Of a stretch of DNA of 22,130 nt, positions 4,175 to 10,253 are shown in pieces. Made by a program: the position numbers and the translations under genes. The notes under the pieces are model-generated. The model had not been told where the DNA came from. It searched no databases and worked only from the letters and a program-made list of their open reading frames with translations. The number at the start of each line of letters is the position of its first letter. Position 1 is the stretch's first letter. Location: positions 1 to 22,130 of IMG/VR virus record IMGVR_UViG_3300034522_000055, one strand, 5' to 3'. Source of the stretch: a virus.

Positions 4175-4362
4175 GCACGCTGTTCCACCCCATCACCCGG
4201 CAGGCTGCTCTGGCCGATCTGGCCGATCTGCCACTCCGCATCAGGGCGACGACCTACACCACCAAACGCGGCCCAGAGGGCCGCACTCTGCGCGAGCAGG
4301 CCCGCCTGCAACTGCGCTGGCACCAGCTATTCCACACCATGAACCGGAGGGCCCAAGCATGA
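4171..4362 (+). CDS. Unknown 63-aa protein
   Basis: ATG 4171 overlaps the preceding stop and its own TGA overlaps the next ATG, so translation is probably coupled on both sides. The protein is basic (LREQARLQLRWHQLFHTMNRR), with predicted helices in the second half and no recognisable domain. Product unknown. Confidence 0.6.
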   Translation: MSTLFHPITRQAALADLADLPLRIRATTYTTKRGPEGRTLREQARLQLRWHQLFHTMNRRAQA

Positions 4363-4568
4363 GCATCGACGCCATTCATATCGCCAAGCGGGCAGAGCGT
4401 GCCGTGCTGCCGCTGCTGACCGAGCTGCTGGCCACCGGCGAGCAGGAAAACCGCATAGCCCTGGGCGAGCTGTATTCCGGGGATGAGTACATCCAGGTGC
4501 AACTGGTCGTGACCAGCCGCCCCGCGGATCTGCTCGATGATGACTCCGTGATGGGGGATGAGGCATGA
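4359..4568 (+). CDS. Unknown 69-aa acidic protein
   Basis: Starts by ATGA overlap at 4359. The sequence begins MSIDAIHIAKRAERAVLPLL, continues with a segment that looks helical (TELLATGEQENRIAL) and a strand-like segment (YIQVQLVVTSRP), and ends in an acidic tail (DLLDDDSVMGDEA). No catalytic motif or known family is seen. It is a small early gene in the coupled series. Confidence 0.6.
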   Translation: MSIDAIHIAKRAERAVLPLLTELLATGEQENRIALGELYSGDEYIQVQLVVTSRPADLLDDDSVMGDEA

Positions 4569-4993
4569 GCGACATCTATGTAAACCCGATGGCAATGCGG
4601 GCCAGGCTGGCCGCCGAGCTGGCTGTGCTGGATTTGTATGGGGTGGTCAAAACCACCGCCGCCAGCCTGAGCGACTGGGTCGGTGTTAACGGCGATTCGC
4701 TCCCAGAGTCGCTTGTCGGTGAGGTAAACACCAGCATGGTCGCCATGTCGGCCGCCGCTCATTGCATTGGCTACAGGTCAGCCGACGAGCTGAGCAAGCG
4801 GCTGGCTGCCTTCGAGGACACCGGCGAGCTAGTCGTGCAACTGCTGGCAGAGCTGAACCAGGGTGATGGCCTGCGGCGTGAGGATCTGGTTGTCACTCGC
4901 TCAGCAGTGTTGCTGCTGGCGATGTATGGGGTGCTGGCACTGGCCAGCCGCGAGGCTAATGCAGACCGCGACGACAAGGAGACGCTGGTATGA
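4565..4993 (+). CDS. Unknown 142-aa helical protein
   Basis: Starts by ATGA overlap at 4565. The protein is mostly helical, with acidic patches (AFEDTGELVVQLLAELNQ) and a hydrophobic stretch near the C-terminus (SAVLLLAMYGVLALAS, about residues 115-130). That stretch could be a membrane helix or a buried helix. It ends in a charged tail (ADRDDKETLV). No known domain. The gene overlaps the next one by 4 bases. Confidence 0.65.
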   Translation: MSDIYVNPMAMRARLAAELAVLDLYGVVKTTAASLSDWVGVNGDSLPESLVGEVNTSMVAMSAAAHCIGYRSADELSKRLAAFEDTGELVVQLLAELNQGDGLRREDLVVTRSAVLLLAMYGVLALASREANADRDDKETLV

Positions 4994-5310
4994 CCGACCT
5001 GTTTGAACTGGAGGCCCCGCTGGATGACCAGGGCACCACAGAGGCGGGCCCCGCCCACATGCGGCCATCCGCACCGCTCAGCCAGTTGGCCAGGCATTGG
5101 GAGGCCGCTCGCGGCGAGTTTGATTGTGCAAACATGTTTGCCGGCCATCCCGACATTGAGTCTCACATTGCCGAGCTGCTGGCCCTTGGCGCCATCCGCG
5201 CCGTGTACTGGTTGGCGCTGGGTAGCGGTGAGGTGGCGCTGGCCAGAGAAATCGCCGAGTGGTGGGCAGACTGCGAACCGCTCCATGGACTGGGGGAGAC
5301 CATCAAATGA
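4990..5310 (+). CDS. Unknown 106-aa protein
   Basis: Starts by ATGA overlap at 4990. The N-terminus is acidic and probably flexible (MTDLFELEAPLDDQGTTEAG). The rest (LSQLARHWEAARGEFDCANM, then HIAELLALGAIRAVYWLAL and IAEWWADCEPLH) looks helical. There is no metal-binding or nuclease signature. It is part of the coupled series of small early genes upstream of the methyltransferase. Not recognised. Confidence 0.62.
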   Translation: MTDLFELEAPLDDQGTTEAGPAHMRPSAPLSQLARHWEAARGEFDCANMFAGHPDIESHIAELLALGAIRAVYWLALGSGEVALAREIAEWWADCEPLHGLGETIK

Positions 5311-5558
5311 GCCACCGCCTGATCACCGACCTGCAAACCCGTGTGGATAGATGGTTCGACACCATGATGGGCGACGAGGCCCGCTTGCGCAGTTACCAGC
5401 GCGACCTGCTGGCGATGCGCCAGCTATCCCCTCGCCCCCGCTGCACGGTCGCCCTGACCTTGCGCCAGTGTGTCGCAGCCAGAAAGATGGCGAGGCATGC
5501 CCGCCATACGCTGGCCTCCTGCCGGAACAACATCAGGGAGTTGTCTGCACATGAGTAA
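5307..5558 (+). CDS. Unknown 83-aa basic protein
   Basis: Starts by ATGA overlap at 5307 (MSHRLITDLQTRVDRWF). The protein is strongly basic and helical, with many Arg and His in its second half (CVAARKMARHARHTLASC), so nucleic-acid contact is possible but not shown. Its stop overlaps the methyltransferase start by 8 bases. No family recognised. Confidence 0.6.
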   Translation: MSHRLITDLQTRVDRWFDTMMGDEARLRSYQRDLLAMRQLSPRPRCTVALTLRQCVAARKMARHARHTLASCRNNIRELSAHE

Positions 5559-7149
5559 CTTCAACCTCTTCAACGAGATCGTCGTGGACAACTTCGCCGG
5601 TGGCGGTGGGGCGTCTACCGGGATCGAGATGGCACTGGGCCGTAGCCCGGAGATCGCCATCAACCACGACCCCGATGCGATCTCCATGCACACCGTCAAC
5701 CACCCCTACACCGAGCATTACTGCGAATCAGTATGGGATATCGTGCCGCGCGATGTGGTGGCCGGCCGTCCTGTTGGGCTGGTCTGGCTGTCTCCTGACT
5801 GCAAGCACTTCTCCAAGGCCAAGGGTTCGACCCCGGTCAGCAAGAAGATCCGGGGGCTGGCGTGGGTCACTCTACGCTGGGCTGCGACAGTTCGCCCCCG
5901 GGTGATCATGCTGGAGAACGTCGAGGAGTTTCAGACCTGGGGGCCACTGCTGCTCGACTCTGAGGGCAACGCCCGCCCTGACCCAGCCAAGAAGGGCCGC
6001 ACATTCAACAGCTTCATCAACGCCCTGCGCCGCCAGGGCTACAAGGTAGAGTGGCGGGAACTGCGCGCCTGCGACTACGGCACCCCCACCATCCGCAAGC
6101 GCCTGTTTCTGATTGCCCGCCGGGATGGCGCCCCCATCGTGTGGCCCAAGCCGACCCATGGCGATCCCGCCAGTGCCGAGGTGAGAGCGGGCAAGCTGCA
6201 GCCGTGGCCAACCGCTGCCGATGTGATCGACTGGTCGATCCCGTGCCCCTGTATCTTCCTTACCCAGGAAGAGGCCAAAGCCCAGGGGCTCAACGTTAAG
6301 CGACCACTGGCTGAGGCCACGATGCGCCGGATTGCCAAGGGGGTGGAGCGTTTTGTCATCAATGCCGCCGCGCCGTTCATTGTGAACACTCGGAATGGGG
6401 AGCGCGAGGGGCAGCAACCCCGGGTCCGTGGTGTAGATCTGCCACTTTGGACTGTTACGGCGCAAGGGTCGCAAGGGGCTATTTGCGTTCCGACACTTGC
6501 CCCCTTCATCACCGAGTTCGCCAACGCCAGCAATCAGCGCAACATGCCGGCAGATGAGCCGCTTCGCACCATCTGCGCCCAGGTGAAGGGCGGTCACTTT
6601 GCCCTGGTGTCTGCCTTCCTGGCCAAGCATTACACAGGCGTCGTGGGTGCCGAGCTGACCCAGCCGCTGCCGACCGTGACCACCGTTGACCACAATGCGC
6701 TGGTTACCAGCCACCTGGTAAAACTGCGTGGCACCTGCCAGCACGGCCAGCCGGTAACTGAGCCCATGCCCACCGTCACCGCCGGCGGGCTGCATATCGG
6801 TGAGGTTCGGGCCTTCCTGCTCAAGTATTACGGCACCGACTCAACCATCCCATGCTCTGAGCCACTGCATACCGTGACCACCCGGGACCGATTCGGTCTG
6901 GTCACCGTGCGCGGCGAGGATTACCAGGTTGTCGATATCGGCATGCGGATGCTGGAGCCCCATGAGCTGTTCGCAGCGCAGGGGTTCCCCGCCGATTACG
7001 TGATCGACCACGACGCCACCGGCAAGAAGTTCACCAAAACCGCGCAAGTTGCCCGCTGCGGCAATGCCGTGTGCCCGCCACTGGCTGCTGCCCTAGTGCG
7101 CGCCAACTTGCCTGAGATGTGCGCAGATGCGCAGGAGGTGGCGGCATGA
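5551..7149 (+). CDS. C5-cytosine DNA methyltransferase with a repeated central region
   Basis: A 532-aa enzyme expected to methylate cytosine at C5 using SAM. Motif I is FAGGGGAS (residues 15-22). The catalytic Cys is Cys84 in SPDCKHFS (PDC in place of the more common PC). ENV is at 122-124, the GTPTIRKRLFLIARR block is motif VIII, and the final motif GNAVCPPLAAALV comes near the end. ATG 5551 is chosen because the homology starts there; the longer open frame upstream is inside the previous gene. At residues 296-450, where the target-recognition part is expected, the motif PLxTVTT recurs about every 33-39 residues (near 298, 337, 372, 405 and 438). Orphan phage methyltransferases like this usually protect phage DNA from host restriction. 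No cognate nuclease gene is seen nearby. Confidence 0.93.
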   Translation: MSNFNLFNEIVVDNFAGGGGASTGIEMALGRSPEIAINHDPDAISMHTVNHPYTEHYCESVWDIVPRDVVAGRPVGLVWLSPDCKHFSKAKGSTPVSKKIRGLAWVTLRWAATVRPRVIMLENVEEFQTWGPLLLDSEGNARPDPAKKGRTFNSFINALRRQGYKVEWRELRACDYGTPTIRKRLFLIARRDGAPIVWPKPTHGDPASAEVRAGKLQPWPTAADVIDWSIPCPCIFLTQEEAKAQGLNVKRPLAEATMRRIAKGVERFVINAAAPFIVNTRNGEREGQQPRVRGVDLPLWTVTAQGSQGAICVPTLAPFITEFANASNQRNMPADEPLRTICAQVKGGHFALVSAFLAKHYTGVVGAELTQPLPTVTTVDHNALVTSHLVKLRGTCQHGQPVTEPMPTVTAGGLHIGEVRAFLLKYYGTDSTIPCSEPLHTVTTRDRFGLVTVRGEDYQVVDIGMRMLEPHELFAAQGFPADYVIDHDATGKKFTKTAQVARCGNAVCPPLAAALVRANLPEMCADAQEVAA

Positions 7150-7190
7150 AAAGACACACCATCACGACTCCGGGTAAAAATCTCCAATGA
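7146..7190 (+). CDS. 14-aa leader peptide coupled to the rep gene
   Basis: A 15-codon frame (MKRHTITTPGKNLQ) has a perfect AGGAGG (7133-7138) 7 bases before its ATG. Its start overlaps the methyltransferase stop (ATGA), and its stop overlaps the gpA start (ATGA). The gpA gene has no good ribosome site of its own just upstream, so reinitiation after this leader is the likely way gpA is made. Very short frames can occur by chance, so expression is not certain. Confidence 0.45.
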   Translation: MKRHTITTPGKNLQ

Positions 7191-9520
7191 CCAACCAGAA
7201 CAACACAGGGCCAGCCGCCGAGGCTGGCCATCTTGGTTTTGCCATCAGCCGTCTGCCGACGCCAAAGCGCAACCAGCTGCCGCTATCCAAGAAGACCCTC
7301 AAGGCCCGTATCGATGCCCTCGCCAATGCCATGCCAGGCACCAAGCTGGAGGCCGCCTTTGTCGGTGCCCATGGTGAATCCGATCTGGTCTGGGCGGTGC
7401 AGCTGCTCGATGGCCTCTCCATGCAGTTCACCCAGGTGCTGTTCAAGCAGTACGTGCGCCGCCGCAAAGATGGCACTGCCCGCAACTGCCGCAGCGCCAA
7501 CATCTGGCTGCGGGAACGGGTGAAGTGGGTTCGCTCTCTGGTGATGGCGCTGCCGGTCGATGCCCACCACTTGCGCGATGATGACGGCCGCAAGCGGGTC
7601 GCCCACCAGTTCGCCAACCAGACGGCCGCTATCTGGAAGAACATCGAGCAGAACTCCGCCGCCGGTGAGCTGGATCTGATGGAGACATGGGAAGCCATCA
7701 AGCAGCCTGCCGACCAGTGGGGGTTCGTCGGCCAGATGCCGGAGTTCAAAACCAGAGAGGCGCGGGATAACTGGATCCTGGGCGTGATGGTGCGCCTGCT
7801 ATCTGCCAAGTGGTGGGAAAGGCGCATCAACCGCTGCTGGGATCGACTGCAAGAGCACATCGCCATTCTGCTGGGCAAGGTGCGCAAGGGGGTCTCTGCC
7901 TACGTCTCGAACGCCACCATGAAGGTGGTACGCGAGCGCAAGCGGGCCATGATGCGCTGGCTGGCCGAGTCGGAGGTGATGAACGAGCAGCACGACCTGG
8001 TTATCTCGATGAAAGATTGCTGGGAAGCCAGCATCTCCAACCCGGTCAACCGTCGCAACGAGATGATGACCCGCATGCGCGGGTTTGAAGACTACGCCGA
8101 GCAACAGGGCCATGTGGGGGTGTTCTTCACCTGGACGGCGCCGAGCCGCTTTCACACCTGGAAGACCGGCCGCAACGGCAAGACCATCGAAAACGACAAG
8201 TACCAGGGCGCCACCCCGCGCGACACCTGCGCCTATCTGGCCAAGCTGTGGAGCCTGACCCGCGCCTCACTCAAGCGCAATGAGTTACCTGTCTACGGCT
8301 TTCGGGTATGCGAGCCTCACCATGACGGCACCCCGCACTGGCACATGCTGCTATTTATGCGCCCGTCAGACCGCAATGCGGTGATCAGCACCCTGCAGCA
8401 CTACGCGCTGACAGACGACAAGGACGAGCTGGTGCGGGTCCCCATGGCTGCCCCCACCTTTACCGATATCACGCCCCGGTTCGACTGGAAGATGATCGAC
8501 CCAGCCAAGGGCGATGCAACCGGCTATCTCGCCAAGTACATCGCCAAGAACATCGATGGCGCCTATGTCGGTGACGACGAAGAGGCTAACACCCCAGCCG
8601 ACCAAGGCGCGCTGCATGCGTGCGCATGGGCCAGTTGGTGGGGGATCCGCACCTTCCAGCAGATTGGCGGCGCACCTGTCGGGGTATGGCGCGAGCTGCG
8701 CCGCATCAGCAACGCCAAGAAGAACGGCGATCTGGTGGGGCCACCCAAGCCCGTGCTGCAAGACCCGCGCTTTGAGGCGGCCCGCTATGCCGCCGATAAC
8801 GCCATCTTTCGCTGCTACCTCGAAGCCATGGGCGGCGCACTGGCCACCCGTGCCGAGCACCCCATCAAGCTGGCCCACCTCATCGAAGAGCAGGCCAACA
8901 GCTACGGCGAAGACATCAAGCGCCTGATGGGGTTGCACACCGCTCGCCTGGGTATCAAGACCCGCCTGCAAGGGTGGGAAGTTGTGCCAGCAGGCACCTT
9001 TGAGGCCGCCAAGGCCGCCGGGGCTTCGGTGGGGGGTGTTGGGGTTAAGACGGGCGACAGCCCGGCACCTTGGAGCTCTGACAATAACTGTACGCAGCCG
9101 GATCCTGAGGCATTCGCGGATCAGTTGATGGCAGAGCAATGGGGTTTATCTCCCTTCTCCATCGGGCGTTTACGGGCAGGATCCAGCGTCAGCGCGGACG
9201 GCTTCACCCTCTGGCTGGAGAACGGCCAGGTGCAGTCGAGCAGGGCGATCCCGAACGAGCCGGATTGGCAGCCAGAAGGCCAGCAGTCAGACGAACAGGG
9301 CCAGCCGGATGAGTACGCGATACCGGACGGGGACCAGGACTGGCCGACGCTGGTTGAGCTGTGCGGCAAGGTCTACCAGGCGCAGGGCCACGCCGGGGCG
9401 CACCGCTGGATAGAGATGCTGCCGCAGCCCTATCAGTCCGAGATGTGGCGCGTGCTGGAAGGGCTGGATACGCCGGAGTGGATGCAGGAGCAGAACGACT
9501 ACAGCGAGGAGTGGGCATGA
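7187..9520 (+). CDS. A: Rolling-circle replication initiator gpA (HUH endonuclease)
   Basis: A 777-aa protein, close in length to P2 gpA. It nicks the origin and stays bound to the 5' end to start rolling-circle replication. The HUH motif is HHDGTPHWH at residues 378-386. The catalytic tyrosine pair is Tyr447 and Tyr451 in YLAKYIAKNIDG; P2 gpA has the same two-Tyr arrangement. The first 370 residues hold basic helical segments. The part after about residue 600 is acidic and Gln/Pro-rich, and probably variable. Its start is coupled to the 14-codon leader. In P2 the origin lies inside the A gene; I could not place it here from sequence alone. Confidence 0.93.
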   Translation: MTNQNNTGPAAEAGHLGFAISRLPTPKRNQLPLSKKTLKARIDALANAMPGTKLEAAFVGAHGESDLVWAVQLLDGLSMQFTQVLFKQYVRRRKDGTARNCRSANIWLRERVKWVRSLVMALPVDAHHLRDDDGRKRVAHQFANQTAAIWKNIEQNSAAGELDLMETWEAIKQPADQWGFVGQMPEFKTREARDNWILGVMVRLLSAKWWERRINRCWDRLQEHIAILLGKVRKGVSAYVSNATMKVVRERKRAMMRWLAESEVMNEQHDLVISMKDCWEASISNPVNRRNEMMTRMRGFEDYAEQQGHVGVFFTWTAPSRFHTWKTGRNGKTIENDKYQGATPRDTCAYLAKLWSLTRASLKRNELPVYGFRVCEPHHDGTPHWHMLLFMRPSDRNAVISTLQHYALTDDKDELVRVPMAAPTFTDITPRFDWKMIDPAKGDATGYLAKYIAKNIDGAYVGDDEEANTPADQGALHACAWASWWGIRTFQQIGGAPVGVWRELRRISNAKKNGDLVGPPKPVLQDPRFEAARYAADNAIFRCYLEAMGGALATRAEHPIKLAHLIEEQANSYGEDIKRLMGLHTARLGIKTRLQGWEVVPAGTFEAAKAAGASVGGVGVKTGDSPAPWSSDNNCTQPDPEAFADQLMAEQWGLSPFSIGRLRAGSSVSADGFTLWLENGQVQSSRAIPNEPDWQPEGQQSDEQGQPDEYAIPDGDQDWPTLVELCGKVYQAQGHAGAHRWIEMLPQPYQSEMWRVLEGLDTPEWMQEQNDYSEEWA

Positions 9521-10020
9521 ACATGAGTAGCAAACAGACCGTCAGCCGCGAAGAGTATCGCCGCCTGGATAATCGGGTGACCTGCATCCTGCAGCAGCGC
9601 TGGCCAGCCAACGAGATCAGCCAGTGGGTGGGGATGCTCAAGGGCAAACAGCAGGCCGTGGCCTGCGCCATTCTGCGCCGCCGCCATCCTCACGCCGCGA
9701 AACTGGCCCTGCCGGCCATCGCCACAGAGGTGCCAAACCCATATCAGGCCAAGGCCCATCGCCCCACCGTGCCGGTGCACTCCGCTGATGGCCGCCCTAT
9801 TGGCCGCCGCCATATCGTGGGTGGACGGCCCCCCGTGGCCATAGACCAGAGCGGCACCATCCGGTGCGCCGTCACCGGCCGCACCCTCTTTATCGCACCG
9901 GGCAGTGCCATCGACCGCGCCAATCCGGGCGCCGCCGAACGGCTCAACCCTATTTATCAGCCAGCCCTGTACCAGGTAGTGGCTGACCACCGTCAAATCG
10001 AGACAGGAGCTCAATCATGA
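9517..10020 (+). CDS. Unknown 167-aa protein
   Basis: Starts by overlap with the gpA stop (ATG 9517). The N-terminal half is helical (EEYRRLDNRVTCILQQRW, then ISQWVGMLKGKQQAVACAIL). The second half is Pro/Arg-rich with a strand-like segment (GTIRCAVTGRTLFIAPGS). No catalytic motif. It probably belongs to the phage-specific genes that follow gpA in P2-like genomes. Not recognised further. Confidence 0.65.
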   Translation: MNMSSKQTVSREEYRRLDNRVTCILQQRWPANEISQWVGMLKGKQQAVACAILRRRHPHAAKLALPAIATEVPNPYQAKAHRPTVPVHSADGRPIGRRHIVGGRPPVAIDQSGTIRCAVTGRTLFIAPGSAIDRANPGAAERLNPIYQPALYQVVADHRQIETGAQS

Positions 10021-10253
10021 GAGACCCCCGCAAACATCCGGTACCGGGTGATGTGATCACCAGATTCGGTAGTACCAGGGAAGTGACAGCCATCAAGCAG
10101 AACGACCGCGGCACGGTGACCCATGTGCTATACGAACACCCTGGTCAGACGCATCTCGAGCAGGCGAAGGAGGCAACCATCTCCAGCTGGCGGGCATGGG
10201 CCAAAGAGGATGCCATGGTGTTAAGGGAGGGCACGGCATGCACCACGAACTGA
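10017..10253 (+). CDS. Unknown 78-aa protein, SH3-like pattern
   Basis: Starts by ATGA overlap at 10017. The sequence (HPVPGDVITRFGSTREVTAI, then THVLYEHP) has the alternating strands and the PGDVI turn of small SH3/KOW-like barrels, but no specific family is recognised. Its last 16 bases overlap the next gene, which has its own ribosome site inside this one. Confidence 0.6.
   Translation: MRDPRKHPVPGDVITRFGSTREVTAIKQNDRGTVTHVLYEHPGQTHLEQAKEATISSWRAWAKEDAMVLREGTACTTN

Follow-up and report, generated by a model that had tools for sequence, protein, structure and literature searches.

Translational coupling of phage genes and the leader before gpA

Translational coupling of neighboring phage genes is already known, and the element described here is a modest twist on it: a 14-codon leader open reading frame (ORF), read as a stub at a cassette joint, that ends on the start of a gpA-type rolling-circle replication initiator gene. 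It lies in IMG/VR record IMGVR_UViG_3300034522_000055, a 22,130-base virus record of a P2-like phage (positions 1 to 22,130; hereafter, the window). In Huber et al. 2019, 13 of 14 tested overlapping gene pairs were strictly coupled (PMC6728339). Other sources describe ribosome delivery by short ORFs to the gene that follows them (a review; PMC12548453), a proposal by Korolev et al. that leader ORFs raise expression via reinitiation (PMC4833913), and a bicistronic expression system (PMC5995908).

The orf84/A pair of phage 186 resembles the window in that the stop of an upstream ORF overlaps the start of a gpA-type gene whose own ribosome site is weak (−3.0 kcal/mol), and a note in the 186 record states that translation of A appears to need translation to the end of orf84. 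The upstream partner in 186 is a full gene (annotated as a PAPS reductase), whereas the window has in its place a stub of 14 codons that follows a methylase. We found nothing direct in the literature on the 186 A/orf84 pair. Upstream-ORF coupling and synthetic bicistronic designs share with the leader a short frame and a strong site, the frame stopping at the target start or on top of it. Synthetic bicistronic designs carry a second Shine-Dalgarno (SD) sequence inside their leader; none was seen inside the leader in the window, which also differs from such designs in its probable natural origin as a gene tail. A further parallel is plasmid R1, in which the short tap leader stands beside the replication initiator gene repA and is needed for its translation, although there it works within antisense-RNA copy control. 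Mycobacterial MIRU elements are mobile inserts whose ORF ends on the target start (−4 nt) and with which expression survives, as we propose for the methylase cassette (PMC12548453). A MIRU is a short repeat, whereas the window has a 1.6-kb methylase gene plus a stub of the recipient operon. The literature on lambdoid phage boundary sequences gave no direct match.

The leader at the methylase/gpA junction

In our view, it is reasonably likely that Aeromonas P2-like (phiO18P-type) phages have an exchangeable methylase cassette whose right-hand joint is the leader, and that the leader restores the coupling of gpA to translation of an upstream ORF (Table 1). The leader ATG overlaps the methylase TGA, and the AGGAGG that precedes it across a 7-base spacer (TGGCGGC) is therefore methylase coding sequence. 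A first-pass annotation of this DNA had placed AGGAGG 7 bases before a tiny ORF whose stop overlaps the gpA ATG, which is correct to the base; it omitted the overlap of the leader start with the methylase stop. AGGAGG alone is not rare in the window, with 4 copies on the plus strand and 5 on the minus strand against a rough expectation of 5 per strand.

Table 1. Features around the methylase/gpA junction, in window coordinates
Feature	Position	Strand	Description
phrog_15868-family gene	5307-5558	+	83 codons; PHROG match; protein ends in RNNIRELSAHE, then stop
C5-cytosine DNA methyltransferase, putative cassette cargo	5551-7149	+	532 codons; Pfam DNA_methylase, E 1.2e-25; PHROG DNA methyltransferase
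AGGAGG Shine-Dalgarno	7133-7138	+	Inside the methylase gene; −11.6 kcal/mol for the anti-SD duplex
Leader ORF	7146-7190	+	MKRHTITTPGKNLQ, 14 codons, TGA at 7188-7190; read as a stub of the phrog_15868 3′ end
ATGA, methylase stop overlapping leader start	7146-7149	+	Sequence
18 nt before gpA	7169-7186	+	15/18 identical to the intact phrog_15868 tail of L017; reached by 0/1500 controls
ATGA, leader stop overlapping gpA start	7187-7190	+	Sequence
gpA-type rolling-circle replication initiator	7187-9520	+	777 aa; Phage_GPA; weak own ribosome site

To compare ribosome sites, we computed the best duplex just upstream of each start, using the tail of the 16S rRNA as the probe. The site of gpA reaches only −3.8 kcal/mol, and the median at 300 random window positions is −2.5 kcal/mol. 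The leader site has −11.6, and the remaining early starts range from −6.6 to −10.0; among the eight starts listed beside gpA, the leader site is the strongest in the early operon. The first-pass statement that gpA lacks a good site of its own thus holds. Weakness is also the rule in relatives, with a median of −3.7 and a strongest value of −6.8 across 51 distinct sequences. The contrast recurs in phiO18P, where gpA has −3.8 and the sites of ten other early genes range from −2.5 to −12.1 (only one being weaker than that of gpA), and in phage 186, where A has −3.0 and eight other genes have −5.9 to −10.8. The contrast is not marked in P2 (A, −5.8; others, −5.6 to −12.2), and some gpA-type genes have strong sites (−9.3 in both LPM4 and ESSI2_ev129), so that a weak site is typical of the clade of the window's gpA rather than of all gpA-type genes.

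The relatives comprised 75 loci that reached 70% identity or more and in which the gpA N terminus could be identified; these reduced to the 51 distinct sequences, and gpA relatives below 70% identity fall outside this count. Thirteen further loci were dropped, 11 without a gpA N terminus and 2 (L013 and L026) missed by the motif pattern, both of which also read ATGA at gpA. Among the 51, the gpA start overlaps the upstream stop as ATGA in 48 and as GTGA in 1, and the upstream stop lies 3 nt away in 2. The upstream partner is usually a phrog_15868-type ORF of 85 to 130 codons (counted from the first possible start), which ends in ATGA on gpA in 44 of the 51, overlaps it as GTGA in L152, and ends in a TAA 3 nt before the gpA ATG in L048 and L058. 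A 14-codon stub ending in ATGA on gpA occupies this position in 4 of the 51 (window/L006, L004, L022, and L029). All four carry the methylase and have phrog_15868 one gene further upstream; the leader is therefore confined to methylase-bearing loci. A direct pattern scan of IMG/VR returned four leader contigs, all already in the locus set (the window's own record was perhaps omitted), and among 37 genomes from the genus to which Aeromonas genome G001 belongs, 1 showed a similar pattern. More broadly, gpA overlaps its upstream gene by 4 to 11 nt in 11 of 14 annotated Peduoviridae records, which were picked from lists and are not a random draw. Translation of gpA is thus likely coupled to the upstream ORF that ends at its start. 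A leader serving as a family-wide regulator of gpA was rejected, given its absence from the 47 distinct relatives without the methylase.

The leader itself is probably a remnant of the phrog_15868 tail. In the methylase-less L017, the phrog_15868 protein ends in CRSNIKELSGNNLQ and a stop, and the stub reads MTRNTIKTLGNNLQ and a stop in L022, compared with MKRHTITTPGKNLQ in the window. The last 18 nt of the stub match the L017 tail at 15 positions in the window, L022, and L029; in 1,500 other stretches before ATGA, used as controls, the mean was 7.1 and the maximum 13 of 18. The left-hand joint was read from the window, L067, L074, and L069, carriers of the same four stub loci. In all four, the phrog_15868 protein upstream of the methylase has the end given in Table 1 and the same 8-nt overlap with the methylase start (ATGAGTAA; 5551 to 5558 in the window), and this tail is changed relative to methylase-less relatives. 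Read most simply, the methylase would have been inserted into the last part of phrog_15868, close to its 3′ end, and the stub is what remained downstream.

Probable exchange of the methylase cassette

The same joints in different phage backgrounds, as expected of an exchangeable cassette, were found in four distinct loci. On a gpA protein tree covering 49 of the 51 distinct loci, with bootstrap values not fully settled, the four methylase-bearing loci are scattered: 4 changes are required, each of them imposed by branches with good support. L074 and L069 are 100% identical in the 240 nt before the methylase, 95.7% in the methylase, and 100% in the stub, and their gpA genes are 82.3% identical over 1,200 nt. 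The gpA of the window, in turn, is 98.7% identical over 1,200 nt to that of L008, which has no methylase. Together, these identities and the scatter on the tree fit exchange between phages of a block running from phrog_15868 to the gpA start, apparently by homologous recombination.

Normally, gpA is the ATGA-overlapping downstream partner of phrog_15868, with almost no ribosome site of its own. A cassette entering near the phrog_15868 3′ end would have altered the end of that gene, such that it overlaps the methylase start, and left downstream a 14-codon tail stub still ending in gpA's usual ATGA. The last methylase codons carry the strong SD and the ATGA exit, from which ribosomes could start at the stub ATG, stop 14 codons on, atop the gpA start, and either restart there or help another ribosome to start. 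The stub would thereby rebuild the coupling that the insertion would break, and ribosomes could reach gpA without first having read through the entire methylase gene. We read the leader as a translated bridge because of the ATGA coupling, the ability of short ORFs to deliver ribosomes, and the phage 186 record note. The overlaps, the contrast of strong and weak sites, the likeness of the stub to a gene tail, the joints common to four loci, and the scatter on the gpA tree are visible in the sequences; what we infer is that ribosomes translate the stub, that gpA relies on this for its own translation, and that the stub was kept by selection for that purpose.

The methylase tail as a proposed exit joint

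More tentatively, and as a proposal that we hold less firmly than the joint itself, cargo cassettes could carry a built-in translation adapter consisting of a strong ribosome site and an ATGA exit in the final codons of the cargo, plus a short stub of the recipient operon's tail, the methylase tail being a portable joint before gpA-type, O-type, and other genes. Methylase relatives were drawn from the best 80 of 587, and tails were counted in L063 to L082 plus the window (n = 21), which are the best-scoring, tail-sharing sequences and include several near-copies. The tail ends in ATGA in 20 of the 21 and in GTGA in 1, with site energies of −9.3 to −12.1 kcal/mol; the ORF that follows is a 14-codon stub in 4 and a frame of 76 to 811 codons in 17. 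The tail thus leads directly into longer genes, gpA-type replication genes among them, in other Aeromonas phages that have no leader. In the viral contigs L063, L065, L066, and L068 and in phage LPM4, a tail of this kind, with a strong site, directly overlaps a gpA-type gene that is ∼34 to 36% identical to the window gpA. In phiARM81mr, the methylase precedes replication protein O with a 4-nt overlap. The AGGAGG/AGGTGGAGG tail is absent from all of the next eight, more distant methylases (L083 to L090), an ATGA exit being present in three of them (L083, L088, and L090), so the joint is not general for the methylase family.

L071 has a 76-codon ORF (4645 to 4890 of that locus) between the methylase and a gpA-type gene; the end of the ORF, like that of the methylase, reads GAGGTGGCAGC(A/G)TGA. 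The joint there looks as if it had been duplicated along with an inserted gene.

Alternative readings of the junction

Several points weigh against a coupling-restoring joint. Huber et al. report that removal of the SD in Escherichia coli cut reinitiation by 60 to 90% in 3 of 5 pairs and abolished it in one (PMC6728339), so coupling may be inefficient for gpA, which lacks an SD. Structure around the gpA start is weak (−10.0 kcal/mol, whereas 200 random positions had a median near −25), so some direct initiation at gpA is possible beside the reinitiation that the first-pass annotation took to be its only route. The likeness of the stub to a gene tail is a short homology, and in L004 the best tail match is 12 of 18, which 10 of the 1,500 controls also reach. 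By simple arithmetic, a 13-codon frame would stay open by chance about half the time, and almost all codon changes between differing stubs are nonsynonymous (0 to 1 synonymous versus 5 to 8 nonsynonymous); for both reasons, the four stub loci are too few to show selection. Finally, that the change was an insertion and not a deletion is suggested by the locus counts and the tree.

Some of these observations favor the alternative that survives best, namely a stub that is no more than a neutral scar of the cassette joint. It would be untranslated, or translated only by the way, and initiation of gpA would take place at the gene's own weak site, in an open region. The loci are few, the stub amino acids are not conserved, the gpA start is open, and joints can arise simply where homology exists. 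A scar is nevertheless harder to reconcile with the retention of the frame, the 14-codon length, and both ATGA overlaps in all four loci at only 66.7 to 85.7% identity between differing stubs, and with the overlap of gpA with an upstream ORF in nearly all relatives. We regard it as unlikely.

Much less probable is the first-pass suggestion of a leader dedicated to regulation, which would hold gpA down on account of the harm done by too much nickase. The weak gpA site and its conservation fit such a control, as does the coupling precedent in the phage 186 record, and dependence of gpA on upstream translation remains probable from the 48 ATGA overlaps, the weak site, and the 186 note. The leader, however, is not a conserved control element: the overlap is family-wide, and length and frame are kept within the methylase class, but the leader frame itself occurs in only 4 of the 51 distinct loci, so that across the family, the frame whose absence was to count against the first-pass proposal is indeed not conserved. 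A limiting role also sits poorly with the strongest site in the operon and with methylase tails of the same kind that join gpA-type genes directly in L063, L065, L066, L068, and LPM4. On this evidence, the strong leader site more plausibly feeds ribosomes to gpA than limits it.

A functional 14-codon product, such as a small peptide acting on replication or the host, is very improbable: none of the four loci has a broken frame, but MKRHTITTPGKNLQ, MKRSHIKLQGHDRQ, and MTRNTIKTLGNNLQ differ from one another at 5 to 8 of 14 positions, and the predominance of nonsynonymous changes likewise speaks against a conserved gpA leader peptide, only the length being conserved.

Gene context and variation around gpA

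The early genes of the window (4359 to 10253) are chained, and all nine successive starts from 4359 to 10017 read ATGA. Eight of these starts overlap the preceding stop, and the methylase start overlaps the 8-nt end of its upstream gene. The phrog_15868 gene, which in this phage group usually precedes gpA, is without a Pfam match or an assigned function. A comparison of positions 5251 to 7400 with plasmids gave no match.

The gpA assignment is based on Pfam Phage_GPA (E 2.9e-88; 296.4 bits against a cutoff of 31.4) and the PHROG annotation “nicking at origin of replication”; the closest gpA proteins among phage records are those of Aeromonas phages P05B, phiO18P, and A051. Relatives have two gpA N-terminal lengths, with 30 or 7 codons before an LPLS motif, and ATGA in nearly all (loci listed for this variation: L003, L034 to L039, L041 to L048, L050, L058, L059, and L155 to L158). 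Loci with an N terminus ∼23 codons shorter still have ATGA at the start, which supports the start at 7187 over one elsewhere. We also rejected a gpA start hidden in RNA structure, with coupling through unfolding, since the start region is open. Apparent gene fusions in L043, L047, L059, and L158 proved to be the gpA frame read upstream, with ordinary ATGA starts. L056 and L057, contigs from one source, carry the two halves of a gpA gene; the L057 sequence before the gpA match looks unrelated to gpA and is possibly an insertion.

Methyltransferase genes of various types stand directly before gpA in 4 of the 14 annotated phages (LPM4, ESSI2_ev129, SEN4, and Fels-2). In L181, L182, L184, and L191, from several Peduoviridae genera, different methyltransferase types lie directly upstream of gpA with overlapping stop and start codons. 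The slot before gpA may be a recurrent cargo site; we found nothing direct in the literature on a methylase hotspot before gene A.

Implications

If the leader is a coupling-restoring joint, it would be one concrete way for phages to add cargo to overlapping operons while keeping an essential replication gene expressed. A built-in adapter, if real, would let a nonessential gene slot in before an essential, poorly initiating one with coupled translation intact. The window and L008 form a natural with/without pair for measuring the effect of a short coupling ORF. The case also corrects an attractive idea, since a replication gene can have a short leader in front of it that does not act as a brake.

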